Shown here in pieces: positions 1 through 22,661 of a stretch of DNA of 64,000 bases. The first letter of the stretch is position 1. Each line of letters begins with the position of its first letter. A program made the translations under genes and the position numbers. Source of the DNA: an uncultured Pelagibacteraceae bacterium (lineage in GTDB: Bacteria > Pseudomonadota > Alphaproteobacteria > Pelagibacterales > Pelagibacteraceae); NCBI GenBank assembly GCA_902581775.1, contig CACHPJ010000001.1:1-64000 (forward strand). The letters run 5' to 3'. The notes below the pieces were generated by a model, which did not search any database, was not told the DNA's origin, and saw only the letters and a list, made by a program, of their open reading frames with translations.

Positions 1-1037
1 CTGGGATGATCTCCACGGTAGGGGATTACGTCAACAAATTTGAAAATGAAATTAAAAATATTACCAAATCTAAATATGTAATTTCGGTTAGTAATGGAAC
101 AATCGGACTTTTTATTTCTTTGAAAGTAACGGGCGTAAAATCAGATGATGAAGTTTTAATACCAGCTGTCTCCTTCGTAGCTACCGCAAACGCTGTGGCT
201 CATTGTAATGCTACTCCCCACTTTGTAGATATTGGAGAAACTGATCTTGGAATTGACCCAATTAGATTGGACGAGTATTTAAAAAGAAATACTTACATAA
301 AAAAAAACAATTGTTTCAATAAAAAAACAAAAAAACCTATCAAAGCTATAATACCTGTTCATGTTTTTGGTCATCCTTGTAACATAAATATGATTATGAA
401 AGTTTGTAAAAAATATAAAATTCGAGTGATCGAAGATGCTGCTGAAGGTATTGGTAGCTATTCACAAAATAAACATGTGGGAACTTTTGGCGATGTGGGA
501 GTATTTAGTTTTAATGGAAATAAAATTGTCACAACTGGTGGAGGAGGAGCAATCGTTACAAATAATGTCTCTATTTATAAAAAAATTAAACATCTTTGCA
601 CAACCGCAAAAATTAATCATCCATGGAGGTATTTACATAATGAAATTGGTTACAATTTTAGACTTCCTGCTCTTAACGCGGCGCTGGGTTATTCTCAATT
701 ACTTAAAATTAATAAATTAAGACAGAAAAAATTCAAACTGTATAAAATTTATAAAAAACTTTTTGCTAAGACAAAAGAAATAGAAATATTAGGATCTCCA
801 AAAAATTGTAAAAGTAACTTTTGGTTACAAACTATTGTTTTGTCTAAGAAAGCCGCGAGTTTAAAAACAAAAATTATTAGGGATTGTCACTCTTCAGGTT
901 TAAAGGTGAGACCTCTTTGGGATCTGATTTCATCTTTTAAAATGTATAGAAAGTGTCCAAAAATGAACTTAAGAAATTCAAAATTAGCATATACTAGAAT
1001 TATAAATTTACCAAGTAGTAGTAATATTTTAAAATGA
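1..1037 (+). CDS. legC: LegC-type DegT/DnrJ/EryC1/StrS aminotransferase, 5' end cut by window
   Basis: PLP-dependent sugar aminotransferase of the DegT/DnrJ/EryC1/StrS family. In the legionaminate pathway it transfers an amino group to C4 of a 4-keto-6-deoxy nucleotide sugar. The first in-window ATG is at 6, but the reading frame is open to base 1 and the text GMISTVGDYVNKFE matches an internal segment of LegC (TGWVSSVG...), so the true start lies upstream. Visible are the VIEDAAEGIG segment (about 141-150 from that ATG) and FSFNGNK with the likely Schiff-base Lys173. Its stop overlaps the next start in ATGA. The downstream neuD/legI/legG/ptmE genes favour LegC over a general sugar aminotransferase. 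Confidence 0.8.
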   Translation, partial: GMISTVGDYVNKFENEIKNITKSKYVISVSNGTIGLFISLKVTGVKSDDEVLIPAVSFVATANAVAHCNATPHFVDIGETDLGIDPIRLDEYLKRNTYIKKNNCFNKKTKKPIKAIIPVHVFGHPCNINMIMKVCKKYKIRVIEDAAEGIGSYSQNKHVGTFGDVGVFSFNGNKIVTTGGGGAIVTNNVSIYKKIKHLCTTAKINHPWRYLHNEIGYNFRLPALNAALGYSQLLKINKLRQKKFKLYKIYKKLFAKTKEIEILGSPKNCKSNFWLQTIVLSKKAASLKTKIIRDCHSSGLKVRPLWDLISSFKMYRKCPKMNLRNSKLAYTRIINLPSSSNILK

Positions 1038-1642: not shown

Positions 1643-2647
1643 ATGAAGAAAATTATTATTATTGCAGAAGCTGGAGTTAATCATTGTGGTAAAATTTCAA
1701 TAGCAAAAAAAATGGTTGATGCAGCAAAAAAATTGAAAGCTAATTATATAAAATTTCAAACTTTTAATCCTGATTTATTATCAACAAAAAGCGCCAAACT
1801 AGCTGAATACCAAAAAAAAAATACAAAATATACCAATCAATATAAAATGCTTAAAAGATTAGCATTAACTAAAAAAGATACTGAAAAAATATACAATTAT
1901 TGTAAAAGAAAAAAAATTGGTTTTCTCTCTACAGCTTTTGATTTAGAAAGTGCAAAATTTTTATTAAAATTTAAAATGGATTATGCGAAAATTCCATCTG
2001 GGGAAATTACAAATTTTCCATTAATAAATTTTTTATCAAAAAAATATAAAAAAATTATTTTATCGACTGGAATGTCTAATATGGCCGAAATTAATTGGGC
2101 TCTTAATATTTTAAAAAAAAATAAAGTAAAAAAAAATAATATCATTTTATTACATTGTACTTCAGCCTATCCAGCGCCAGTTGGAGAACTTAACTTAAAT
2201 AGTATTCAATTTTTAAAAAAAAAATTAAATTTGAAGGTTGGATATTCTGATCATTCGACAAGCACTTTAACACCAATTATTGCTGCTAGCTTAGGCGCTA
2301 TTTTAATTGAAAAACATTTTACACTAAATAAAAAATTTAAAGGGCCGGATCATAAATCCTCTATTAATACCAATGAGTTTACCGAAGTAATTAATGGAAT
2401 TAAATTTATGAAACATGCTGCAGGAAATGAAATTAAGAAGTGCACAATATCAGAGAATAAAAATAAAAATTTAGTAAGAAAGTCTATTTATGCTTTAAAA
2501 GATATTAAAAAAGGTGAAAAGTTTAGTGAAAAAAATCTAGTAACATTAAGACCCGACAAAGGTATTAGCGCCATGTTTTGGAAAAAAGTTATTGGAAAAA
2601 AAGCTAAGAAAAATTTTAAAAAGTTTACTTTGATTAAATATGTATAA
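1643..2647 (+). CDS. legI: N-acetylneuraminate/N,N'-diacetyllegionaminate synthase
   Basis: A 334-residue NeuB-family synthase that condenses a 2-epimerised hexosamine with phosphoenolpyruvate to make a nonulosonic acid. The N-terminal NeuB TIM barrel shows AEAGVNHCG (8-16), KFQTF (37-41), the LAEYQ segment, STGMSNMAE, VGYSDHS and EKHF. A C-terminal antifreeze-like SAF domain begins near residue 280 (KSIYALKDIKKGEKF). Length and domain order are normal for the family. The neighbours LegC, LegG and PtmE point to legionaminate rather than Neu5Ac. The gene starts directly after the neuD stop and overlaps the next gene by 8 bp. Confidence 0.88.
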   Translation: MKKIIIIAEAGVNHCGKISIAKKMVDAAKKLKANYIKFQTFNPDLLSTKSAKLAEYQKKNTKYTNQYKMLKRLALTKKDTEKIYNYCKRKKIGFLSTAFDLESAKFLLKFKMDYAKIPSGEITNFPLINFLSKKYKKIILSTGMSNMAEINWALNILKKNKVKKNNIILLHCTSAYPAPVGELNLNSIQFLKKKLNLKVGYSDHSTSTLTPIIAASLGAILIEKHFTLNKKFKGPDHKSSINTNEFTEVINGIKFMKHAAGNEIKKCTISENKNKNLVRKSIYALKDIKKGEKFSEKNLVTLRPDKGISAMFWKKVIGKKAKKNFKKFTLIKYV

Positions 2648-3761
2648 CATTGGTATTTTTACTTCCTCTAGATCAGACTATGGAATTTTAAGCAATATTA
2701 TAAAAAAATTAAATGAAAATATAAATGTAAGACTCAAGATTTTTGTAGCAGGTTCTCATCTCTCAAAGGTTTATGGTTACACAGTTAATGAAATAAAAAA
2801 AGATATCAATTCAGAATTAATTTATTGTCCTAACATTATTTTTAATAAACATAAAATTGATATGGCCGCATCATCCAATAAACTAATAAGTATCTTTAAA
2901 AAAAAATTAGATCGGAGTAAAATCAAAACAATTATATTTTTGGGCGATAGATATGAGATTTTACCGGCTGCTTTAATTTGTTTACTTAAAGGTGTAAAGA
3001 TTGTGCACATACATGGTGGGGAAATAACAGAGGGAGCTATTGATAATTATATAAGAAATGCGATGTCTATGATTTCAAACTATCATTTTGTTGCAACACC
3101 TAAATCCAAAAAGAGGCTTTTAAATTTTGGTATAGATAAAAAAAGAGTATTTTTAATTGGTGCTCCGGGTTTAGAGGATATTAACAAATATTTATTCAAC
3201 AGGGAATTTCTTGAAAAAAAATTTAATTTTAAATTTTATAAACAAAATATAATGATCTCTTACCATCCTGAAACTTTAGATTTAGAAAATGTGAACAAAA
3301 ATTTAAATATTTTACTTAGTAGTATTAAAAAATTTAAAAAGGTAAGATTAATATTTTCTGCTCCGGGTGCAGATTTAAAAAGTGATTTTATAAAGAGAAA
3401 AATTAAGGATTTTTCTAATAAAAATAAAAATTCTATTTATTTTGACTCCTTTGGACATAAAGATTATTTGTCTTTTCTAAAAATTTGTAATTTATTAGTT
3501 GGAAACTCATCTTCAGGTATTATTGAAGCTCCTTCATTGAATACATTGTCAATTAATTTAGGAATTAGGCAAAGAGGAAGAGAGAAAGCAAAAAGTGTTA
3601 AGGATTTGAGTTTCAGCAAAAATTTGATTGTTAAAACTATTAAAAAAGTTATTAATGGTAAAGAAACAAGAAAAAAAATTAAAAATCCTTACTATGTTTA
3701 TAAAAATCCAAGTTCAAAATTTGTAAAAATTTTATTAAAAAATCTTAAAAAAAGAAACTAA
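2640..3761 (+). CDS. legG: Hydrolysing NDP-N-acetylhexosamine 2-epimerase (LegG/NeuC)
   Basis: A 373-residue hydrolysing 2-epimerase with the two-lobed WecB/NeuC fold. It releases the nucleotide and inverts C2, giving the six-carbon substrate for LegI. Typical signatures are SRSDYG near 10-15, GDRYE, HIHGGE near 120-126, SYHPET and the C-terminal GNSSSGIIEAPSL segment that binds the nucleotide phosphates. Sequence alone cannot separate NeuC (UDP-GlcNAc) from LegG (GDP-diacetylbacillosamine). The adjacent ptmE, which makes GDP-activated glucosamine, supports LegG. It overlaps legI by 8 bp and lies 9 bp before ptmE. Confidence 0.83.
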   Translation: MYNIGIFTSSRSDYGILSNIIKKLNENINVRLKIFVAGSHLSKVYGYTVNEIKKDINSELIYCPNIIFNKHKIDMAASSNKLISIFKKKLDRSKIKTIIFLGDRYEILPAALICLLKGVKIVHIHGGEITEGAIDNYIRNAMSMISNYHFVATPKSKKRLLNFGIDKKRVFLIGAPGLEDINKYLFNREFLEKKFNFKFYKQNIMISYHPETLDLENVNKNLNILLSSIKKFKKVRLIFSAPGADLKSDFIKRKIKDFSNKNKNSIYFDSFGHKDYLSFLKICNLLVGNSSSGIIEAPSLNTLSINLGIRQRGREKAKSVKDLSFSKNLIVKTIKKVINGKETRKKIKNPYYVYKNPSSKFVKILLKNLKKRN

Positions 3762-3770
3762 TTTTAAAAA

Positions 3771-4805
3771 ATGTTTATTAAAAAGGTAAATTTCAACAAA
3801 ACTGTTATTTCACTGGAATCTTTAATCAGAGATTGTGTAAAAAGTCTTAACCATTCTGGCCTACAAATTGTAATCGTGGTTGATAAGAAAAAAAATTTTT
3901 TAGGTACAATTACAGATGGCGATATAAGGAGAGGTTTTTTAAACGGTCTTAATTTAAAATCATCAATAAAAAAAATTTTAAACTATAAATCTGTTACTGC
4001 CAAACCTAATATAGACACTGATAGGGCTGACAGTATATTGAGAAGATTTGATATTACACACCTACCAATATTAAAAAATAGAAAATTGGTAGGACTTTAT
4101 TATAAGGGTAGTGCAAAATCAAAAACTAATAATATAAATAGTAAAGTTATAATTATGGCTGGTGGTTTTGGTAAGAGGTTAGGTAAACTTACAAAAAAAA
4201 CACCCAAGGCTATGCTTAAATTAAATGGAAAGCCGTTATTAGTTCATATAATAGAAAAATTAAAAAAAGAGGGTTTTAAAGAAATTTATATTTCTATTTA
4301 TTATTTAAAAAAAAAGATTAAAGATTATTTTTCTAATGGAAAGAAATTTGGCGTAAAGATCAATTATATTGAAGAAAATTCTCCAATGGGAACAGTAGGC
4401 TGCCTACGCTTGTTAAAAAAAAGATTAGATAGCAGTTTTTTCCTAGTAAATTGTGATGTAATCACAGGTCTTAATTTTCAGGAAATGCTGATTTATCATC
4501 AAAAAAATAAGTCTGAAGCAACTATGGCAGTTAAAAATTTTGAATTTATTAATCCATATGGTGTGATAGCATCAAAAAATAATAGGTTTCAAAACTTTGA
4601 GGAAAAACCAACCACTTTTTTTAACATAAATGCAGGTATTTATTTATTTAATCCAGCAATAATAAAAATAATCAGAAAATATAAAATAAAATCTGTCCCA
4701 ATTTTATTTAATTATCTTAAGTTAAAAAAAAAGAAAATCTTAACCTATCCAATGTACGAAAGTTGGGAGGATTTTGGTCTAGAGATTAAAAAGCTTAAAC
4801 CATAA
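3771..4805 (+). CDS. ptmE: PtmE-like CBS-domain sugar-1-phosphate guanylyltransferase
   Basis: A 344-residue two-part protein. Residues about 1-118 form a CBS-domain pair (GTITDGDIRRGF, then FDITHLPILKNRKLVGL). Residues about 125-344 form a nucleotidyltransferase, with the NTP-binding loop MAGGFGKRLGKLTKKTPKAM (129-148), NCDVITG as the metal site and FEEKP further on. The architecture matches PtmE of Campylobacter jejuni, the glucosamine-1-phosphate guanylyltransferase that opens the GDP-linked legionaminate route. The CBS pair may sense a nucleotide. It follows legG closely and belongs to the same operon. The exact sugar is inferred. Confidence 0.78.
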   Translation: MFIKKVNFNKTVISLESLIRDCVKSLNHSGLQIVIVVDKKKNFLGTITDGDIRRGFLNGLNLKSSIKKILNYKSVTAKPNIDTDRADSILRRFDITHLPILKNRKLVGLYYKGSAKSKTNNINSKVIIMAGGFGKRLGKLTKKTPKAMLKLNGKPLLVHIIEKLKKEGFKEIYISIYYLKKKIKDYFSNGKKFGVKINYIEENSPMGTVGCLRLLKKRLDSSFFLVNCDVITGLNFQEMLIYHQKNKSEATMAVKNFEFINPYGVIASKNNRFQNFEEKPTTFFNINAGIYLFNPAIIKIIRKYKIKSVPILFNYLKLKKKKILTYPMYESWEDFGLEIKKLKP

Positions 4806-4832: not shown

Positions 4833-5597
4833 ATGAGTAATAAAATAAAATATATTAATTGTGGTGCAGTTATTATTGCAAGACTTAAGTCAAAAAGACT
4901 AAAAAAGAAAGCATTGCTTAAAATTAACGAAAATGAAACTATTATTGAATATATAATTTTAAAGTTAAAAAGATTATTCAAAAACCAAGACATAATTTTA
5001 GCCACTTCTCATAAATCTAGTGATAGAAAATTAATTCTTAAAGCAAAGCAAAAAAATATTGGATTTTATCAAGGTGAAGCCATCGATGTTATCAAAAGAA
5101 TATATTTAGCAGCAAAAAAAAAGAATTTTTTAAATGTATTTGTTTGTACAGCTGATAATCCACTGTTTGATTTATCGTTAGCTCAGAGAATGATAAATCA
5201 CCACATAAATAAGAAAAGTGATTTTACCTGTTATAATGGAGCTCCTATAGGAAGTTACGGCTGGGTTTTGAATGTAAAAAAAATCAAAAAAGTATTAGAG
5301 ACAAAAAAAATAAAAGACACTGAGATTTGGGGTAACCTTTTTTTAAAAAATAAAAAAATAAAATCTTCAGTTCTATTGAGACAAAACAAAAGTAATAGCA
5401 GTATATTATCAAAAATAAGATTGACTGTCGACACTATTGAAGATTTGAAACTAGTCAAGCAGGTTTTAAAAATATCTAAAGTAAAATATCCAAGCTTAAA
5501 AAATGTTGAGAAAATTTTATTAGATAACAAATATTTGATAAAAATTAATTCCAAAATCAAACAACGAAAGGCACCTAGGAATATTTTTGTTTATTAA
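4833..5597 (+). CDS. SpsF/acylneuraminate-type cytidylyltransferase, probable CMP-nonulosonate activation
   Basis: A 254-residue nucleotidyltransferase of the SpsF / cytidylyltransf_3 group. It shows IIARLKSKRLKKKALLKI (14-31) for NTP binding, CTADNPLFD as the metal-binding region and IRLTVDTIEDLKLVKQV near the C terminus, as in SpsF. It ends the legionaminate run, where a CMP-legionaminate synthetase (LegF/PtmB) would be expected, so it probably makes the CMP sugar. It does not carry the usual PARGGSKRIPRKN loop of NeuA/LegF. A purine-rich AGGA precedes the ATG. The family is clear and the substrate is uncertain. Confidence 0.68.
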   Translation: MSNKIKYINCGAVIIARLKSKRLKKKALLKINENETIIEYIILKLKRLFKNQDIILATSHKSSDRKLILKAKQKNIGFYQGEAIDVIKRIYLAAKKKNFLNVFVCTADNPLFDLSLAQRMINHHINKKSDFTCYNGAPIGSYGWVLNVKKIKKVLETKKIKDTEIWGNLFLKNKKIKSSVLLRQNKSNSSILSKIRLTVDTIEDLKLVKQVLKISKVKYPSLKNVEKILLDNKYLIKINSKIKQRKAPRNIFVY

Positions 5598-5614
5598 ATA
5601 AGCAAAAAAATTGC

Positions 5615-5643
5615 TTTACTGTTCAATAAATGAACGGTAATAT
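5615..5643 (+). promoter_or_regulatory. Promoter of the MarR/EPS regulator with palindromic operator in the spacer
   Basis: A -35-like TTTACT (5615-5620) and a -10-like TAATAT (5638-5643) lie 17 bp apart. The spacer is almost filled by the inverted repeat GTTCA-ataaa-TGAAC (5621-5635), extended by outer AC/GT matches. The same element at the same spacing precedes the ABC flippase gene (10658-10686). A repressor bound here would block RNA polymerase, so autoregulation by the downstream MarR protein is the natural reading. The promoter and binding protein are inferred. Confidence 0.6.
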
Positions 5644-5653
5644 ATTAAATATT

Positions 5654-5953
5654 ATGAAAGATGATCAAGACCATTTTAATGTTTTAAGGCAAATACATAA
5701 AAAAAAAGAGTCATCCCAAAGGGAATTAGCCAGTGAACTTGGATTTAGTTTAGGAAAGTTAAATTATGTAATGAAAGCTCTACAAGAGAAAGGATTGATA
5801 AAGATTGAAAACTTTAAAAATAATCCAAAAAAAGTAAATTATTTCTACATTCTTACACCAAAAGGAATAGCTACAAAAACTAAACTTACAATCAATTTCA
5901 TGAAAAGAAAAATAAAGGAGTATGAAGAATTAAAAAAAGAAATTGAAAAATGA
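5654..5953 (+). CDS. MarR-family EPS-associated transcriptional regulator
   Basis: A small winged-helix repressor closely resembling the MarR-type EPS-associated regulator family (TIGR04176). Markers are SSQRELASELGFSLGKLNYVMKALQEKGLI for the recognition helices, then NFKNNPKKVNYFYILTPKGI and a C-terminal KRKIKEYEEL helix. I chose the ATG at 5654 (99 residues). The upstream in-frame ATG at 5630 lies inside the operator palindrome and upstream of the expected transcription start, and family members begin close to this point. The mRNA would then have a leader of only a few bases. The stop overlaps the carbamoyltransferase start by 4 bp. It probably controls the polysaccharide genes on either side. 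Confidence 0.82.
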   Translation: MKDDQDHFNVLRQIHKKKESSQRELASELGFSLGKLNYVMKALQEKGLIKIENFKNNPKKVNYFYILTPKGIATKTKLTINFMKRKIKEYEELKKEIEK

Positions 5954-7746
5954 ATATAATTTCAATTGTAGACAGTCATACATCTAGTGCATCTTTAATT
6001 TGTAACGGTTCAGTAGAAGTTTTAGTTAGTGAGGAGAGATTTACCAGAAAAAAAGGTCAAATCAGTTATCCAAAAAAATCTATTGATTATTGTTTAAAAA
6101 TCCTTGGAAAAAGAAAACTTGATCAAGTTTTAGTTAACGGAAAAATAGCAGCAGACCCCTTTACAATAAGGTTAGCTAGATCAAATACTTTCAGTGTCAG
6201 TGATTGGATTAACGAACAATATGAGTATCAAAAACCAATTTTGATAGAGAAAAAAAAAATTTCGAGTATTAAGAGAAAATATTTTTATAAACTACAAAAA
6301 AAAAAGAAATTTCCTCAAACAAACTATCTAAATATAAATACTGTAAACTGGACTTATGATGGTTCTGATTATGATAGAAATTTATTTCGCTCTATTCAGA
6401 TTAAAACATTAAAAAAACATCTTAAAATAGATGATAATAAAATTAAATTTTCTGAACATCACCCATCTCATTCCGCGTACGCATATTTTGCAAGTCCATT
6501 TAGAAAAAAAAAGGCTTTGGTTTTTACGATGGACGCCGTCGGAGAAAAAATTAATGCAACTATATCTATTGTAAAAAATGATAAAATAAGGGAAGTTTTT
6601 AGAACTGGTAATAGTAACCTAGGCAGATTATGGAAGTACATCACTCTTTTATTGAGCATGAAGCCTGATGAACACGAATATAAAGTTATGGGGCTAGCAC
6701 CTTATGCACATGAGAAGTATTCACGAGAAGTTTTAAATTTATTTAAAAAAAATTTTCAAATTACAAAAGGTCATAACTTTATAAATTCTAGCAAAATAAA
6801 AGATATATACTTCTCGTTTCAAAAAATACTTGAACCTTATAGATTCGATAATATAGCTGGAGGCCTTCAGCTTTATACCGAGGAAATAGTTTCTAATTGG
6901 GTAAAATATGCAATAAAAAAATACAAAATCAGTAGAGTAGTTTTTTCTGGGGGTATTTCTATGAATATAAAGCTAAATAAATGCTTATCTGAAATAAGTT
7001 CTCTAAAGGAACTATATGTTGCTGCTAGTGGCGGTGACGAGTCCTTGGCTCTTGGTAATTATTATAATATTTATGGAAATGGCAAAACAAAGCCACTTAA
7101 TAATATTTACTTGGGCCCTGAATATAATGATGATCAAATTTATTCTGCTATAAAAAAAATGAAAAAAAAAACTTATATTGTTAAAAAAAATTTGCCACTT
7201 AAAAAAATTGCTCAATATTTATCCAGAGGTTATATTGGAGCAAGATTTAGTGGAAAGATGGAATTTGGCGCCAGGGCTTTGGGCAATAGAAGTATTGTAG
7301 CAGACCCTTCAAAAATAGAAGTATTAAAAAAAATTAATACTCAAATAAAAAATAGAGATTTCTGGATGCCTTTTACTCCGTCTGTTTTAGACTTTATGGT
7401 AAATAAATATGTTAAAAATCCTAAAAAGATTTTTTCTCCACATATGACTATAGCGTTTGACACTACCGAAAAGGGTAAAGAACATCTTAAAGCTGCAATT
7501 CATCAATATGATTTAACAGCCCGACCTCAAATGCTTAAAAGAAGCTTTAACCCAAAGTATTATGACTTGATAAAAGAATTCCATAGATTAACAGGAGTTG
7601 GGGCTCTGCTGAACACATCATTTAATCTACATGGTTTTCCAATTGTAATGTCACCGAGTGATGCATTACACGTTTTTAATAATTCAGATTTAGATATGTT
7701 AATTTTTGATAATTATTTTATCTTGAGAAATAAAAAACTAATTTAA
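5950..7746 (+). CDS. NodU/CmcH-family O-carbamoyltransferase
   Basis: A 598-residue carbamoyltransferase that transfers the carbamoyl group of carbamoyl phosphate, via carbamoyl-AMP, to a sugar hydroxyl. The N-terminal Kae1-like half carries the metal site EHHPSHSAY (His170, His171, His174) and the phosphate-binding region with FSGGISMNIKLN. The C-terminal carbamoyltransferase domain has the hallmark GKMEFGARALGNRSI segment and ends in LNTSFNLHGFPIV. Length fits the family. It is coupled to the MarR gene by ATGA and converges with the fusion gene, overlapping it by 9 bp. Role as a decorator of the surface glycan is inferred from context. Confidence 0.85.
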   Translation: MNIISIVDSHTSSASLICNGSVEVLVSEERFTRKKGQISYPKKSIDYCLKILGKRKLDQVLVNGKIAADPFTIRLARSNTFSVSDWINEQYEYQKPILIEKKKISSIKRKYFYKLQKKKKFPQTNYLNINTVNWTYDGSDYDRNLFRSIQIKTLKKHLKIDDNKIKFSEHHPSHSAYAYFASPFRKKKALVFTMDAVGEKINATISIVKNDKIREVFRTGNSNLGRLWKYITLLLSMKPDEHEYKVMGLAPYAHEKYSREVLNLFKKNFQITKGHNFINSSKIKDIYFSFQKILEPYRFDNIAGGLQLYTEEIVSNWVKYAIKKYKISRVVFSGGISMNIKLNKCLSEISSLKELYVAASGGDESLALGNYYNIYGNGKTKPLNNIYLGPEYNDDQIYSAIKKMKKKTYIVKKNLPLKKIAQYLSRGYIGARFSGKMEFGARALGNRSIVADPSKIEVLKKINTQIKNRDFWMPFTPSVLDFMVNKYVKNPKKIFSPHMTIAFDTTEKGKEHLKAAIHQYDLTARPQMLKRSFNPKYYDLIKEFHRLTGVGALLNTSFNLHGFPIVMSPSDALHVFNNSDLDMLIFDNYFILRNKKLI

Positions 7747-9768
7747 TCTTTTAAAACCTTCATGGCATTGAGGTATTTTATCTAAAATTTCCAAGTTATT
7801 TCCTTTTTCAAAATCTTTAATACTTTTAAAGATTTTATTTAAATGCCAAAAATATTTATTTAAATTTTTCTTATTATGGTAAATCGATAAAAAAATAAGA
7901 TTTGAAGCTAAAATTGAATTTCTAAGCATGATATAAGTAATGTAAGATTTATATTTTAACCATTTTTTTGAGCTTAAAGTAAAACTTGGAATCGCATTCA
8001 AGCCAAAAATATTAATTTTTAGATTATATTTTTTGGCTAATCTTCTCCATCTTTCTTTAATAATCTTTCCTTGTTTAGAAACAATTTTCCATGTTTGTTT
8101 CTCCTCCATTATTTTTAGAACATTCAATGCTGCGACGTAACCAGTTCTTTCAGTCCAAAAAGTACTACTGATAAAAGTGCTTTGGGCGCTATCCATTATT
8201 CTTTTTTTTCCTAAAACTGCAGTAATCGGGTAACCGTTACCTAAAGCTTTTCCTAAAATGCATATGTCAGGTGTAACCTTATACTTTAAATGAATTCCTC
8301 CAAATGTTTCTCTAAAACCACTAGTGCATTCATCAAAAATTAAAACAATATTTTTTCTTTTACAAAAATTGCTTACTTTTTTTAAAAAATTTCCTTTTGG
8401 TGGAAAATTTCTGTGAACTTCCATTTTTACAATTCCAATATTATTTTTTGTGCAAATTTTGTAGAAGCTTTTAATATCATTATACATGAACGGAAAAACA
8501 GTATTTTTTAATTTTTTTGGAACCCCTTCAATTGGTAAGCCTTTCAAAAGATGTGAGTTTAAATTATCATTAGATTTTAAATTAGCAGATAGGTACCAAT
8601 CGTACCATCCATGATATCCGCAAATAGCAATGTTGTCCTTTTTCGTATAAGCTCTTGCAATACGGATTGCTATTGAGTTAGCTTCTCCACCGGTCTTAGC
8701 AAAACGTACCATATCAAAGTTTTTATGCATTTTGACTAATTTCTCAGCTAAAAAAACTTCTTCAGGACAATTAAGCGAAGACATGTTTCCTTTTTTTACA
8801 GTTTTAATAACTTCTCTATCAACTCTCTGATTACAATAGCCAAGAAGATTAGTACCTACACTCATTGTTGAAAAATCTAAAAACTTCTTTCCTTCTAAAT
8901 CCCAAACATGACACCCTTTAGCTTTTGAAAAATACGTAGGCCACCCACCGGGTAGAAACATTTCAGGTCTTTTTGATAACAACATATTACCGCCAGGAAT
9001 AATATTCTTTGCTCGGCTCCAAAGTTTTTGACCAGCATTTATTTTCCCACCAATATTTCTCATAATATTTCTATCGAGTCTAAAGATTTTTTTATTTTTT
9101 TTAAAGAGTTTTATCACATCATTATTTAAAAAATGTTTTTTTTTAATTTCTTTATAAACATCATTTAAAACTTTTAAATCAGAATTTTCATCTATCGTTA
9201 GTCTTATTCTAGAGTAATTTTTTTTTTGAGAAAAATTATATTTTTTTTTTGCATTTTTAATTATATATGGCGTTACATGCTCTTTATCATATAATTTTTT
9301 AGCTTTTGAAAATGCATTTTTTAATTGATCAAACTTAAAAATTTCTACATCAAAACCATCAGGGTATGTAGGAGGATTGACGTTTGAAATATAGTCATAA
9401 TCATTTTTTTTTATTTTTAAAATCATTTCATCTAAGATTTTATAATCTATAAACGGACAATCACCTGTTATTCTAACTACATAATCAGATTTAAGTTTCT
9501 TCGACACTTTATAATATCTTTCAAGAACGTTTTCACTTGAGCCTCTATAAACTTTAAAACCTTTTTTTCTTAACATATTTACTAAAACATCATCTGATTT
9601 TGAATTTGTCGTAGCCACAACTAGATCATCAAAATTTTTTGATTTAAGAACTCTTTCTAACAAAAAAATAATTGCGGGCCTATTTCCAATTTTCTGAATT
9701 ATCTTATTGGGGAACCTAAGTGACCCCATTCTAGCTTGAATTATAATTGTAACCTTTTTCTTTACCAT
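7738..9768 (-). CDS. Fusion: SpsF-type cytidylyltransferase + class-III (GSA-type) aminotransferase
   Basis: A 676-residue two-domain protein. Residues 1-235 are an SpsF-type nucleotidyltransferase (IIQARMGSLRFPNK 10-22, ITGDCPFID near 100-108, IRLTIDENSDL near 188-198). Residues 245-676 are a class-III PLP aminotransferase close to glutamate-1-semialdehyde aminomutase (IIPGG near 256, KTGGEANSIAIRIAR 358-372, YHGWYDW 385-391, FDECTSGFR 478-486 and the Schiff-base Lys507 in ILGKALGNGYP). In surface clusters such proteins are taken to aminate and activate unusual sugars. It overlaps the aldo/keto reductase by 7 bp, so the two form one transcript. No frame interruption is seen. The substrate is unknown. 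Confidence 0.85.
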   Translation of the reverse strand: MVKKKVTIIIQARMGSLRFPNKIIQKIGNRPAIIFLLERVLKSKNFDDLVVATTNSKSDDVLVNMLRKKGFKVYRGSSENVLERYYKVSKKLKSDYVVRITGDCPFIDYKILDEMILKIKKNDYDYISNVNPPTYPDGFDVEIFKFDQLKNAFSKAKKLYDKEHVTPYIIKNAKKKYNFSQKKNYSRIRLTIDENSDLKVLNDVYKEIKKKHFLNNDVIKLFKKNKKIFRLDRNIMRNIGGKINAGQKLWSRAKNIIPGGNMLLSKRPEMFLPGGWPTYFSKAKGCHVWDLEGKKFLDFSTMSVGTNLLGYCNQRVDREVIKTVKKGNMSSLNCPEEVFLAEKLVKMHKNFDMVRFAKTGGEANSIAIRIARAYTKKDNIAICGYHGWYDWYLSANLKSNDNLNSHLLKGLPIEGVPKKLKNTVFPFMYNDIKSFYKICTKNNIGIVKMEVHRNFPPKGNFLKKVSNFCKRKNIVLIFDECTSGFRETFGGIHLKYKVTPDICILGKALGNGYPITAVLGKKRIMDSAQSTFISSTFWTERTGYVAALNVLKIMEEKQTWKIVSKQGKIIKERWRRLAKKYNLKINIFGLNAIPSFTLSSKKWLKYKSYITYIMLRNSILASNLIFLSIYHNKKNLNKYFWHLNKIFKSIKDFEKGNNLEILDKIPQCHEGFKRLN

Positions 9769-10619
9769 GTTTGCGGATTTATAATTTTTGTATTTCTTAC
9801 TTTTAAACTATTATAATTATATTGTATTTTGGACTTTTTGTAATTTAATATTTTTTTTAATTGATCTATACTATCAAATCCAATTATAACTTTATCAACC
9901 TTTTTTCTAGAGAAAGCAAAATTTAAACAACCATCCAAATTTGATAAATTATTTTTTTTTAACCAGTTAAAAAGGATATTAAAATATTTTTTTTTTGATT
10001 TAAATTTTCTTGGAATATTGTTTTTTTTTTTTAATAAAAGTCCCTGTAAGAAAATCGACCTCCCATGTGTTTCTACATTATTTTTTTTTAAAGTATCTAT
10101 CCATCCAGTATCAATAATTCTTTGATCAAATAAATTTATTGGAAATTGCACAATATCTGGTTTAAATTTTTTAAATAAAATTTTAAGTTCATTTGGAGAA
10201 TAAATTGAGAAACCAATTTTTTTTGTTAATTTCAATTTTTTTAATTTTACTAAATTTTTAAATATTTTTTTACCATTTTTGTTTTTAAGATATAAGGGGT
10301 TATGAATTAGTAAACCATAAAGCTTCTTCTTCTTAAGTTTTTTTAATGAGTTTTGAATTTCAAATTCAAGTTGGTGGAATTTATTATGTCTTTTACCTAG
10401 CATTATTTTATTGATAATTGAAAAGTTGCCAGATAGATTTCCAATTTCTTTTTCACAATTATATTTTATCGCTGTGTCAATTAGATTAATTTTTTTTTTA
10501 ATTAATTTTTGGAGAAGCAAATTAATTTGCCCTTTATTAGAGTGCAGTGTTTTTTTATTAATACCGTATCTTTGAGTTAAATTAGCGGTCCCAAATATAA
10601 TTCTTTTACCCAAATCCAT
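9762..10619 (-). CDS. Aldo/keto reductase
   Basis: A 285-residue NAD(P)H-dependent aldo/keto reductase with a TIM barrel. The catalytic tetrad is visible as Asp48 (LIDTA), Tyr53 (IKY), Lys71 (IINKI) and His106 (LLIHNP); IGFSIYSP and VIIGFDS complete the cofactor site. It is the first gene of a two-gene minus-strand transcript with the SpsF-aminotransferase fusion, and overlaps it. Such SpsF/aminotransferase/AKR trios occur in spore-coat and flagellar-glycan clusters, so reduction of a sugar intermediate is likely. It is transcribed away from the flippase gene, with the shared palindrome between them. The substrate is not determined. Confidence 0.83.
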   Translation of the reverse strand: MDLGKRIIFGTANLTQRYGINKKTLHSNKGQINLLLQKLIKKKINLIDTAIKYNCEKEIGNLSGNFSIINKIMLGKRHNKFHQLEFEIQNSLKKLKKKKLYGLLIHNPLYLKNKNGKKIFKNLVKLKKLKLTKKIGFSIYSPNELKILFKKFKPDIVQFPINLFDQRIIDTGWIDTLKKNNVETHGRSIFLQGLLLKKKNNIPRKFKSKKKYFNILFNWLKKNNLSNLDGCLNFAFSRKKVDKVIIGFDSIDQLKKILNYKKSKIQYNYNSLKVRNTKIINPQTW

Positions 10620-19543: not shown

Positions 19544-19618
19544 GGGCGTGTAGTTCAGTGGTAGAACGCTACGTTGACATCGTAGAGGTCATAAGTTCAA
19601 TTCTTATCACGCCCACCA
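19544..19618 (+). tRNA. tRNA-Val (GAC)
   Basis: A full cloverleaf can be drawn. The acceptor stem GGGCGTG pairs with CACGCCC (19608-19614), and A then CCA are encoded. The anticodon stem CTACG/CGTAG frames the loop TTGACAT, anticodon GAC at 19576-19578. The T arm has GTTCAAT. It lies alone between the O-antigen ligase gene and the SDR gene, inside the surface-glycan island, 8 bp from the end of the convergent SDR gene. Confidence 0.96.
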
Positions 19619-19626
19619 TTCAGAAT

Positions 19627-20412
19627 TTAAAAAATACTTTTTGATACTCCACCATCAACGGTAATAGCTGAACCATTAATATAGCTGGAATTTTCAGAAC
19701 ACAAAAACAAGACTATTTGAATAAACTCATCAGGATTTGCTACTCTTTTAACTGGGATATTATTAGCAATTTTTTTTAATGTTCTACTAATTTTTTTTTT
19801 ATCTTTTCCAATTAGTGACTTAATTCTATCTGTTAAAACACCTCCAGTCAGAATAGAATTCACAGTAATTCCGTACATACCAATTTCATATGAAAGTGAT
19901 TTTCCAAAAGATATTACTCCTGCTCTTGTAACATTAGAAAGAACTAAAGACGGGCTAGGCTCTTTAGCAGTTGTTGAAGTCAAGTTTATAATTCTACCCC
20001 ATTTATTTTTTTTCATACCTGGAATAACTTTTTGCGACATAAGTATGGAACTCAACAAATTATTATTTAAAGCAAAACTCCAGTCTTTTAATTTTGTTTT
20101 TGTTGCAGTTAATACCTTAGGTCCACCGGAGTTATTAACTAAGATGTCAATATTAGACTTGAAACTTTTTGTTACTTTTTTTTGTAATGCATCAATCTGA
20201 TTTAATTTGGAAAGGTCACATAAAAAATATCTACAATCAACATTTTTTTTTTCTTTCAAAATTTTGTTTCTTGCTGCAACTAAGTTTTTTTTACTTCTAC
20301 TGCTAATTGCAACCTTAGCTCCATTTAGGGCCAACTGTTTCGCTATTTCGTACCCTATCCCTTTCGAGCTTGCAGTAACGAGAGCCAGTTTATTTCTGAA
20401 ATTAAATTTCAT
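19627..20412 (-). CDS. Atypical SDR oxidoreductase lacking the catalytic Tyr-Lys pair
   Basis: A 261-residue classical SDR fold like 3-oxoacyl-ACP reductases: TASSKGIG (13-20) and NNSGG (93-97) bind NAD(P), and the C-terminal INGSAITVDGG closes the fold. Ser146 sits where the catalytic Ser belongs. The expected YxxxK is replaced by SNVTR, with Ser159 and Arg163 at the Tyr and Lys positions. A subgroup of SDRs shares such a change, so it may bind ligand or use other chemistry. The start is 2 bp from the NeuB-like gene stop, suggesting one transcript and a shared function. Confidence 0.75.
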   Translation of the reverse strand: MKFNFRNKLALVTASSKGIGYEIAKQLALNGAKVAISSRSKKNLVAARNKILKEKKNVDCRYFLCDLSKLNQIDALQKKVTKSFKSNIDILVNNSGGPKVLTATKTKLKDWSFALNNNLLSSILMSQKVIPGMKKNKWGRIINLTSTTAKEPSPSLVLSNVTRAGVISFGKSLSYEIGMYGITVNSILTGGVLTDRIKSLIGKDKKKISRTLKKIANNIPVKRVANPDEFIQIVLFLCSENSSYINGSAITVDGGVSKSIF

Positions 20413-20414
20413 TA

Positions 20415-21101
20415 CTAAATCTTTTTTATATTATTAATTATAAATTTTATTTTATTCAATGGTATAGCATGTTTATTATCTGGATATTGTAATTTTTTAT
20501 TTAATTTCAAGTAAAAAAATATTGCTTTTGGGTCATGTTTACAAGCGGCAAGCAAGTTTCCTTTATTTTTATAATGACTCCCAAAACAAACAGGTATATC
20601 TAATTTTCTCATTTTTTCCATTTTCCTAAAATCTTTTTTAATATTATTTTCATTAAAAGATGTATGTATGAGATTAAGCTTTTGCTTTTTAAGTTTTGAG
20701 ATAATTTCAGAAATTTTTTTGTTTGAACTTAATCCAGTTGACAAATAAACTTGTTTCAAATTTAACTTTTGAATTTTTTTAATATATTTGTAATTTTCAA
20801 ATGATTTACTTAATAGTTTTATAAAATCTAAATTTAAACTTTTTAAAAAATTAAAATCTTTCCAATCAAAAATTGCAACACCAACCTCGTCAAAATTATT
20901 TTTAGCTTTTTTAATAAAATTTCTTATATACTTTTTTTCTAATTGGTATTTTTTTAATCTAAAATTTGATTTATTATCTTCAAAAATTTGAATTGTAATT
21001 GCATTTAGACCTTTGTTTTTAAACTTATTAACATATTCATTTAAAATTTCATTTTTGCCAAGATGATTTAAACCAATCTCCCCAATAATTTTTAAACTCA
21101 T
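20415..21101 (-). CDS. Divergent NeuB-like TIM-barrel protein, no SAF domain
   Basis: A 228-residue protein similar to the barrel of N-acetylneuraminate synthases: GEIGLNHLG (7-15) matches the NeuB opening motif and YLSTGLSSNKKISEII matches its STGM region. Other catalytic elements are changed. The VKFQ site reads ITIQ (Lys replaced by Thr) and no EKHFTLD segment is seen; PDNKHA near the C terminus may replace it. The C-terminal SAF domain is absent, whereas LegI at 1643-2647 has all of these. It may be a decayed synthase or a family with a new role. It lies next to the 5S rRNA gene and is followed by the atypical SDR. Confidence 0.65.
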   Translation of the reverse strand: MSLKIIGEIGLNHLGKNEILNEYVNKFKNKGLNAITIQIFEDNKSNFRLKKYQLEKKYIRNFIKKAKNNFDEVGVAIFDWKDFNFLKSLNLDFIKLLSKSFENYKYIKKIQKLNLKQVYLSTGLSSNKKISEIISKLKKQKLNLIHTSFNENNIKKDFRKMEKMRKLDIPVCFGSHYKNKGNLLAACKHDPKAIFFYLKLNKKLQYPDNKHAIPLNKIKFIINNIKKI

Positions 21102-21201: not shown

Positions 21202-21319
21202 TGCCTGGTGATTATTGCGAAGGGGCCACACCCGATCCCATTTCGAACTCGGAAGTTAAGTCCTTCAGCGCCGATGGTACTTTGTCTTAAGACATGGGAG
21301 AGTAGGTCGTTGCCAGGCT
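21202..21319 (+). rRNA. rrf: 5S ribosomal RNA
   Basis: About 118 nt with closed helix I (GCCTGG at 21203-21208 with CCAGGC at 21313-21318), the conserved ACACCCGATCCCATTTCGAA region and GAACTCGGAAGTTAAG in helices II/III, and GCGCCGATGGTA with TGGGAGAGTAGG at the 3' half. No 16S or 23S gene is in the window. On the 5' side lies the surface-polysaccharide island, and on the 3' side rpmJ starts 15 bp away. This arrangement matches HVR2 of SAR11 genomes. Confidence 0.96.
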
Positions 21320-21459: not shown

Positions 21460-21464
21460 CATCT

Positions 21465-21575
21465 ATGAACAACCAAGATCACAAAAATACTTGGGATAAT
21501 TTTACAAAATTTGTTCTGTGGGGCACAGCCATTGTTATAGCTATTTTAGTTATCTTAGCTGTTACCTTACTATAA
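21465..21575 (+). CDS. aa3-type cytochrome c oxidase subunit IV, minimal 36-residue form
   Basis: The 36-residue product MNNQDHKNTWDNFTKFVLWG continues into one hydrophobic helix (TAIVIAILVILAVTLL). It matches the bacterial aa3-type oxidase subunit IV family (H-x-x-T-x-x-x-F-x-K/R-x-x-x-W-G-T followed by one membrane helix). The protein would sit in the inner membrane with the heme-copper oxidase as an accessory subunit. It lies between rpmJ and pntAA, away from the other cox genes. Confidence 0.8.
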   Translation: MNNQDHKNTWDNFTKFVLWGTAIVIAILVILAVTLL

Positions 21576-21587
21576 AAATAAATTGAT

Positions 21588-22661
21588 ATGATTATAGGTT
21601 CAACAAAAGAACAGAAACCAGAAAAAAGAATTTCTATTACCCCAGAAACTTCTAAAAGTTTTAAAAATTTAGGTTTGAGCGTTTGTTTAGAACAGGGTTA
21701 TGGAGAAAATCTTGGTTACAGCGATAATGCCTATAAAGAAAACGGCGTAGAAATATTGGATAACTCAAATGCTGTTATGACAAAATCAAATCTTATTTGT
21801 AAAGTACGTTTACCAAATACATCAGATTTAGAATTATTAAAGTCAGATTCAAATCTAATAATTAGCGAGTTTACTGATGAAAAAAAGATTTTAAAAAAAA
21901 ATATTAATATTTTCTCATTAAATTTTTTGCCAAGAATAACAAGAGCACAATCAATGGATGTTCTTTCTTCACAAGCAAATTTAGCTGGTTATAGAGCAGT
22001 AATAGAGTCGATTTATGAATATGAAAAAGCTGTACCCATGATGATGACTGCCGCTGGAACAGTACCAGCAGCAAAAATTTTAGTAATAGGTGCTGGAGTG
22101 GCTGGTTTGCAGGCAATAGCCACAGCAAAAAGAATTGGAGCTATAGTTTCAGCTACAGATGTTAGATTAACCGCCAAAGAACAAGTCGAGAGCTTAGGTG
22201 GAAAATTTTTAACCGTTGAAGGCTCCGAAAATTTAGAAACCAAAGGTGGTTACGCAAAAGAAGCAAGTCAGGAATTTAAAAAAAAACAAGCTGAAATGTT
22301 AACAACAGCAGCGTCCAAGAGCGATATTATAATATGTACAGCTTTAATACCTGGCAAAAAAGCACCAAGAATAATAACTGAAAATATGATTAAAAATATG
22401 AAACCCGGTTCAGTAATTTTTGATTTAGCAGTTTCACAAGGAGGAAATTCTGCTTATTCTGAAATAGATAAAACTGTATCAATTGACGGTATAAAAATTA
22501 TAGGTTTAAGTAATATTATGAATAAGTTACCGCTAACTGCTTCAAATTTGTACGCAAAAAATATTTTCAGTTTCGTAAGAAATCTATATAGCAGAGAAAA
22601 GAAAACTTTTGTGATAAATATGAAAGATGAAATAATTAAAAATACATTAATAAAGGAATAA
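21588..22661 (+). CDS. pntAA: NAD(P) transhydrogenase subunit alpha part 1
   Basis: The 357-residue NAD(H)-binding dI component of the proton-translocating transhydrogenase, which uses the proton gradient to make NADPH. It begins MIIGSTKEQKPEKRISITPET, as in PntAA and alanine dehydrogenase. The Rossmann loop is ILVIGAGVAGLQAIATAKRIGA (about 164-185), followed by TDVR, and the mobile loop region SQGGNSAYSE is seen. The three-gene split (PntAA, PntAB, PntB) is usual in alphaproteobacteria. It is 4 bp from pntAB. Confidence 0.94.
   Translation: MIIGSTKEQKPEKRISITPETSKSFKNLGLSVCLEQGYGENLGYSDNAYKENGVEILDNSNAVMTKSNLICKVRLPNTSDLELLKSDSNLIISEFTDEKKILKKNINIFSLNFLPRITRAQSMDVLSSQANLAGYRAVIESIYEYEKAVPMMMTAAGTVPAAKILVIGAGVAGLQAIATAKRIGAIVSATDVRLTAKEQVESLGGKFLTVEGSENLETKGGYAKEASQEFKKKQAEMLTTAASKSDIIICTALIPGKKAPRIITENMIKNMKPGSVIFDLAVSQGGNSAYSEIDKTVSIDGIKIIGLSNIMNKLPLTASNLYAKNIFSFVRNLYSREKKTFVINMKDEIIKNTLIKE

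Follow-up and report, generated by a model that had tools for sequence, protein, structure and literature searches.

The window analysed here, a stretch of 64,000 nucleotides from an uncultured Pelagibacteraceae bacterium, carries beside its 5S rRNA gene a short NeuB-like gene and, directly downstream of it, an SDR gene, both altered at catalytic positions. This raises the question whether the two genes are leftovers of a sugar pathway or a working pair with a task of its own. A sequence-only reading had called the NeuB-like protein degenerate, and had proposed that the two genes may form a unit with a function distinct from sialic-acid synthesis.

Position of the pair in a probable SAR11 O-chain island

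Both ORFs are intact, as had been claimed for them (Table 1). They lie on the same strand with the NeuB-like gene upstream, and its TAG stop is separated from the ATG of the SDR gene by TA, a gap of 2 bp. The window is very A+T-rich (22–38% G+C per kb); its contig is 161 kb long and belongs to a draft genome of 890 kb. By the records matched, the relatives of the window are Pelagibacteraceae (SAR11). The O-chain island of this group, HVR2, is described as lying between the 23S and 5S rRNA genes (PMC2217521; PMC11898729). The window shows the 5S border together with O-chain-type genes; it begins where the contig does, and the 23S edge lies off this contig. The pair stands just inside the 5S border, apparently at one edge of the island, and the gene next inward from the tRNA-Val encodes an O-antigen-ligase-type membrane protein (PF04932, 45.2 bits; cut-off 31.7). 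No convincing direct repeats, looked for as possible insertion marks, flank the pair.

The nonulosonate genes of the window lie ∼16–20 kb from the pair, and no CMP-transferase was found within 7 kb of it. From their sequences, we read the LegC-type aminotransferase, NeuB, NeuC and the nucleotidyltransferase, the last of which we take to be PtmE-like, as a legionaminic-type pathway. By eye, the N-terminal third of the 676-aa protein resembles a SpsF-type cytidylyltransferase, fused to the aminotransferase part.

Table 1. Features of the window, in order of position
Feature	Position	Strand	Remarks
LegC-family aminotransferase	6..1037	+	458.7 bits, cut-off 420; nonulosonate pathway, same island
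Ordinary NeuB-type synthase	1643..2647	+	334 aa; TIGR03569 398.0 bits, just below cut-off 399.65
NeuC-type UDP-GlcNAc 2-epimerase	2640..3761	+	351.3 bits, cut-off 235.9
Sugar-1-phosphate nucleotidyltransferase	3771..4805	+	matches under family cut-offs
676-aa protein	7738..9768	-	residues 242–638 resemble a glutamate-semialdehyde-aminomutase-like aminotransferase
tRNA-Val(GAC)	19544..19618	+	8 bp past SDR stop, tail to tail
SDR gene, GGP/SxxxR (Tyr-less) class	19627..20412	-	261 aa, intact ORF
Short NeuB-like TIM-barrel gene	20415..21101	-	228 aa, intact ORF, without SAF domain
5S rRNA	21204..21318	+	102 bp from NeuB-like start; probable right-hand edge of SAR11 O-chain island (HVR2)
pntA RNA	21461..21522	+	Rfam, 58.1 bits (gathering 54); followed closely by ORF 21588–22661

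A conserved subfamily of short NeuBs

The departures from canonical NeuB that had been read from the window protein were borne out. At its N-terminus it retains the opening GEIGLNHLG. The KFQ of synthases is ITIQ here, so that the FQ-site Lys is lost; the EKHF block has become FFYL, and the protein ends with the barrel, without a SAF domain. The protein scored 52.1 bits against the NeuB barrel family PF03102 (cut-off 22.1), with no second domain above its own cut-off, and missed the curated synthase models TIGR03569 (57.4 bits; cut-off 399.65) and TIGR03586 (39.8 bits; cut-off 340.25). In NmeNeuB numbering, carried over by alignment, the substitutions are K53 to T36, E234 to F195 and H236 to Y197. 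Lys53 of NmeNeuB is presumably a PEP contact and His236 a Mn ligand. The key residues reported for NmeNeuB include Glu25, Gln55, Asn74, Thr110, Phe112, Lys129, Asn184, Tyr186, Ser213, His215, Glu234, Phe288 and Arg314 (PMC6795526).

In an AlphaFold2 model of the short NeuB built on profile A3 (mean pLDDT 85.4, pTM 0.86), the NeuB (beta/alpha)8 barrel is intact. VIA-align returned PseI 8h2c (Z 26.9), NmeNeuB 1xuu (Z 26.4) and 6ncs (Z 26.3) as tied matches; the model superimposes on the barrel of the NeuB/NnaB, PseI and LegI synthases (1xuu/2wqp, 8h2c, 6ncs) with an rmsd of 1.9–2.0 over 226 residues (1.9 for 1xuu), and KDO8P and DAH7P synthases are the next nearest folds (Z ∼21). The barrel is thus complete, and the losses are confined to the PEP/metal residues and the SAF domain. 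Short NeuBs have ExGxNHxG, K129, S154, H215 and D247 in common with these synthases but lack K53, E234, H236 and the SAF domain, and have added a PDxxHA motif. Absence of the SAF domain is not exclusive to them, as many full-type NeuBs in related loci are only 268–302 aa long and also lack it.

We compared 30 distinct short NeuBs (the window protein, 10 from genomes of the genus, 13 from further genome contigs and 6 from viral contigs), the most alike two of which share 63% identity. At the PEP/metal end, K53 is replaced by Thr or Ser in 29 of them and by Glu in one, E234 by a non-polar or aromatic residue (Phe, Leu, Met or Tyr) in all 30 and H236 by Tyr in all 30, whereas each of the 23 full-type NeuBs compared retains all three residues. 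The sugar-side residues E25, N29, H30, K129, S154, H215 and D247, and also G32, are invariant among the 30. A new His three residues past D247 and a Lys or Arg two residues past the Tyr are each present in 29/30, and the motif gained by the subfamily reads FxYxK...PDxxHA. Since some loci were collected by patterns covering the EIGxNHxG and PDxxHA regions, the way of collection partly favours these two motifs; the positions of K53, S154, H215 and H236 were in no pattern used for collecting the 30. In a maximum-likelihood tree, a branch supported at 100/99 has all 30 to one side, and the Acidobacteria member (L044) forms a long branch. As the same substitutions are fixed across at least 30 distinct proteins, they are changes and not losses in one copy. 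The description as degenerate is therefore not supported, and by its sequence the window protein belongs to a distinct, conserved and re-modelled NeuB subfamily.

Searches reached this family by profiles (A3, A5) only; single-sequence searches with the NeuB-like protein returned nothing in genome contigs, phages or viral contigs. The genus profile search matched 14 genomes, namely the window's own, 10 with the short family and 3 with full-type NeuBs only. Class and phylum samples searched by profile gave the own genome alone (1/385 and 1/398), so either the family is rare or this first look was lossy. Members outside Pelagibacter came from a pattern scan of genome contigs, whose 30 loci were divided by HMM comparison into 12 ordinary NeuBs (L051–L062) and 18 of the short family, 5 of the 18 repeating loci already collected. 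Marine virus AG-345-L05, a candidate known-phage carrier, was rejected, its match being an ordinary NeuB (L123).

Might the pair still be the decaying leftover of a nonulosonate cluster, isolated next to the 5S gene? It is short and very A+T-rich, has lost canonical motifs and lies apart from the window's own NeuB cluster, all of which would suit a remnant. However, the ORFs are intact, the substitutions are fixed family-wide, and in 9/9 pairwise comparisons codon position 3 was the most different and position 2 the least, a pattern of purifying selection. Between the window and L034, the nearest locus by SDR identity, differences at codon positions 1/2/3 were 0.33/0.26/0.50 for the SDRs and 0.44/0.28/0.52 for the NeuBs; these values stand in for dN/dS, since, with the nearest relatives at 41% (NeuB) and 57% (SDR) identity, synonymous sites are almost saturated. 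The same pair also occurs in viruses and several phyla. The family-wide fixed residues and the recurrence of the pair refute a remnant as an account of the family, and we regard it as a highly improbable explanation of the locus. Decay and a lack of co-occurrence elsewhere were both looked for, and neither was borne out.

Coupling of the short NeuB to a Tyr-less SDR

The SDR of the window keeps its GxxxGxG-type cofactor loop (TASSKGIG, with conserved G18 and G20) and the catalytic Ser146, and has Ser159 and Arg163 in place of YxxxK, confirming the earlier observation that its catalytic residues have changed. GGP, Ser146, Ser159 and Arg163 are found in all 22 pair SDRs examined, none of which has YxxxK, so the altered residues, as aligned, are not peculiar to the window gene. 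The GGP/SxxxR signature is probably older than the pairing, because half of the outside SDRs compared (7/14) share it. The closest solved sequence relative of the pair SDRs, 1o5i (E 2.4e-54; annotated 3-oxoacyl-ACP reductase, which we take to be TM1169), shares with them N-x-GGP and SNxxR replacing YxxxK, and is not linked here to a NeuB. The SDR model (pTM 0.89) has a Rossmann fold, and its top structural match is AerF (6jh7/6jha/6jhb; Z 34.3, rmsd 2.2, 258 residues, 33% identity), with matches within 1 Z unit counted as tied. AerF likewise lacks YxxxK, with SGVVN in the alignment, and is reported to act in aeruginosin (Choi) synthesis, not in sugar pathways (PMC10143770). BacG, another relative by sequence, is described as reducing dihydro-hydroxyphenylpyruvate epoxide (PMC9147277), which shows that SDRs near the pair class can perform unusual reductions.

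In the SDR tree, 19 short pair SDRs (214–222 aa, one of them truncated where its contig ends) form a single clade (100/100), the window and L034 SDRs (57% identical) a second, and the SDR of L044 a third, among full-length SDRs of the same class. A single origin of the pair SDRs gave AU p = 0.055 with 8 outside SDRs and 0.024 with 14. On this test, more than one GGP/SxxxR line has probably become a partner of the short NeuB, a result that is suggestive and not firm.

How closely are the two genes linked? Across 38 distinct short-NeuB loci, a set mixing loci found via the NeuB and via the SDR, the SDR gene follows immediately in 29 and after one intervening gene in 1, and is absent there in 8. 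The ORFs overlap in 25 of the 29 adjacent pairs, most often by 4 bases. Via the NeuB alone, the SDR was present in 22/30 loci (21 adjacent, 1 next-but-one), and among 23 viral matches it accompanied all 11 short-family loci (10 adjacent, 1 next-but-one), several of these being the same contigs as within the 30. Reciprocally, via the SDR alone, 16 of 18 loci on viral contigs had a GGP SDR with a short NeuB directly upstream, a count that includes near-copies and one upstream gene cut by a contig end. The same search yielded in L105 a YxxxK SDR without a short NeuB and matched in L122 a YxxxK SDR, though the pair is also present there. Within the genus, the short NeuB occurs in 12/169 genomes and the SDR in 8/169, all 8 among the 12 (P = 3.5e-11), a co-occurrence favoured by the use of an SDR profile built from pair SDRs; the genes are adjacent in 7 of these 8 genomes and on separate contigs in one (G223). 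NeuB and SDR distance matrices correlate (r = 0.83, 19 pairs, 0/2000 permutations as high), as plain co-inheritance would also produce. Together, the adjacency, the presence of the short NeuB in 8/8 SDR-carrying genus genomes and the codon-position pattern strongly support the proposed two-gene unit. Other bacteria and marine viral contigs also carry the pair, and the comparison identifies it as a real, conserved unit.

As 8/38 loci have no SDR directly or next-but-one downstream, the short NeuB may also act alone or with another partner. Solitary copies lie beside tRNA-Glu (L022, L027), near tmRNA (L033) and adjoining a methyltransferase (L025); the other SDR-less short NeuBs are a CMP-transferase fusion (L030), a copy next to a CMP-transferase (L043), L038 and L039. 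In L030, a single 483-aa ORF (8844–10295) joins the short NeuB to a CTP_transf_3 domain. The tRNA-Glu sites, 7019–7769 in L022 and 9406–10401 in L027, have similar flanking genes in two genomes, with the inserts on opposite sides of the tRNA and from different subclades; the tmRNA site of L033 is 5457–6693. It looks as though solitary short NeuBs had landed repeatedly at stable-RNA genes.

Surroundings and proposed function of the pair

Within 7 kb of the short NeuB, a CMP-transferase is found in 18/30 loci and a full-type NeuB in 19/30, and in 14 of the 38 distinct loci the CMP-transferase lies immediately upstream. L034 runs NeuB, NeuC, nucleotidyltransferase, an unknown gene, PseF-like CMP-transferase, short NeuB, SDR and aminotransferase; the window likewise has a NeuB, a NeuC and a nucleotidyltransferase, along with an aminotransferase domain related to that of L034. 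In L038, ∼90 bases separate the end of a complete 23S gene from the short NeuB downstream of it, and in L030 the distance is ∼3 kb; 23S-type matches also lie upstream in L026 and L029, so that short NeuBs are found at both island edges. A T4-type major capsid gene is present in one viral record with the pair (G967, 185 kb; L103, L104) and had no match in the other 5 of the 6 viral records, which are mostly much shorter. In this T4-like virus record, a contig of 185,564 bases, the pair (L065) belongs to a stretch of surface-sugar genes. By eye, genes resembling PEP mutase/cytidylyltransferase, phosphonopyruvate decarboxylase and aminotransferase stand beside short NeuBs in a SAR11 genome (L025, 13610–17023) and a viral contig (L066, 8182–10681), neighbourhoods that possibly hint at phosphonate-bearing surface glycans.

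As many pairs sit among nonulosonate genes, their pathway is probably still sialic-acid-like. The suggested function distinct from sialic-acid synthesis thus holds in part: it fits the concerted loss of PEP/metal residues, but the pathway around the enzyme has probably stayed of the same kind. We are fairly confident that the two proteins act in nonulosonate or ulosonate metabolism and, to the same degree, that the short NeuB is catalytic rather than structural; that it is not a PEP synthase also seems likely. Our favoured reading, which we put forward tentatively, is that the two enzymes are transferred together as a cassette and tailor a nonulosonate, a sialic-acid-like sugar (here probably legionaminic-type), for the SAR11 O-chain. 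Because the sugar-side residues are kept and the PEP/metal residues lost, the barrel may still use its former synthase pocket to bind a nonulosonate or the precursor sugar, without condensing it with PEP. It would instead do acid/base work (epimerisation or water elimination) near the acid/keto end, and the NAD(P)H step would fall to the SDR, either as hydride transfer or as conjugate reduction, reactions in which its class would do without the usual Tyr. The product would be an epimer or a deoxy nonulosonate, then activated by a CMP-transferase; the close coupling to CMP-transferases and to a partner of NAD(P)-type fold suggests tailoring before or after activation. A more far-reaching version, in which a re-purposed, PEP-free NeuB barrel and a Tyr-less SDR catalyse a new nonulosonate reaction, as a SAR11/marine-virus cassette for an undescribed surface sugar, is conceivable, and we hold it with some reserve.

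A precedent for nonulosonate tailoring is offered by the aci/ela capsule modules of Acinetobacter, described as SDR-containing add-ons to the CMP-legionaminic pathway with predicted C7/C8 epimers as products (PMC5595891, PMC9676051). Their authors note that biochemistry is still needed for the predicted CMP-legionaminic epimerisation (PMC5595891). The modules resemble the pair by description only, and no NeuB-like partner figures in the descriptions concerned.

Two other functions have to be weighed against tailoring. The short NeuB could be a pseudo-enzyme subunit that pairs with a full-type, often SAF-less NeuB to regulate or cap it, the SDR being a separate tailoring enzyme. The SAF domain of NmeNeuB is reported to cap the partner monomer (PMC6795526), and the frequent full-type neighbours, many of them without the SAF part, would be suitable clients. 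However, 11/30 loci lack a full-type NeuB within 7 kb, and a cap would need neither E25, N29, H30, K129, S154, H215 and D247, invariant in 30/30, nor the newly gained, near-invariant polar residues, which together make this role unlikely. Could the protein instead still be an ulosonate synthase, with H176, D208 and the new H211 as an alternative metal site, condensing an aldehyde with PEP or some other keto-acid donor to give a product that the SDR reduces or oxidises? The retained fold and K129, S154, H215 and D247, the new His that follows the invariant Asp in 29/30, and the fact that KDO8P and DAH7P synthases, the nearest folds beyond NeuB, manage without a SAF domain all speak for it. Against this stand the family-wide replacement of K53 (Thr or Ser in 29/30), E234 and H236, kept in 23/23 full-type NeuBs, and the absence of the SAF-domain Arg314, reported as essential in NmeNeuB (PMC6795526), and we find a surviving synthase rather doubtful.

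The pair is a two-gene unit so far undescribed within the open-access literature searched, and its short NeuB is a variant of the NeuB family; in the main text of PMC11898729, the words sialic, nonulosonic, NeuB, legionaminic and pseudaminic are absent. Overall, given its recurrence across bacteria and marine viruses, the pair probably works as a unit in making or editing an acidic surface sugar. The label 'N-acetylneuraminate synthase' is likely wrong for the short-NeuB subfamily. SAR11 surface polysaccharides vary enormously from cell to cell and are plausible phage receptors, yet few of their sugars are known. A cassette whose non-canonical active site is fixed, and which SAR11 shares with marine viruses, gives two defined enzymes for assays and a way of learning which acidic sugars SAR11 and these viruses make.
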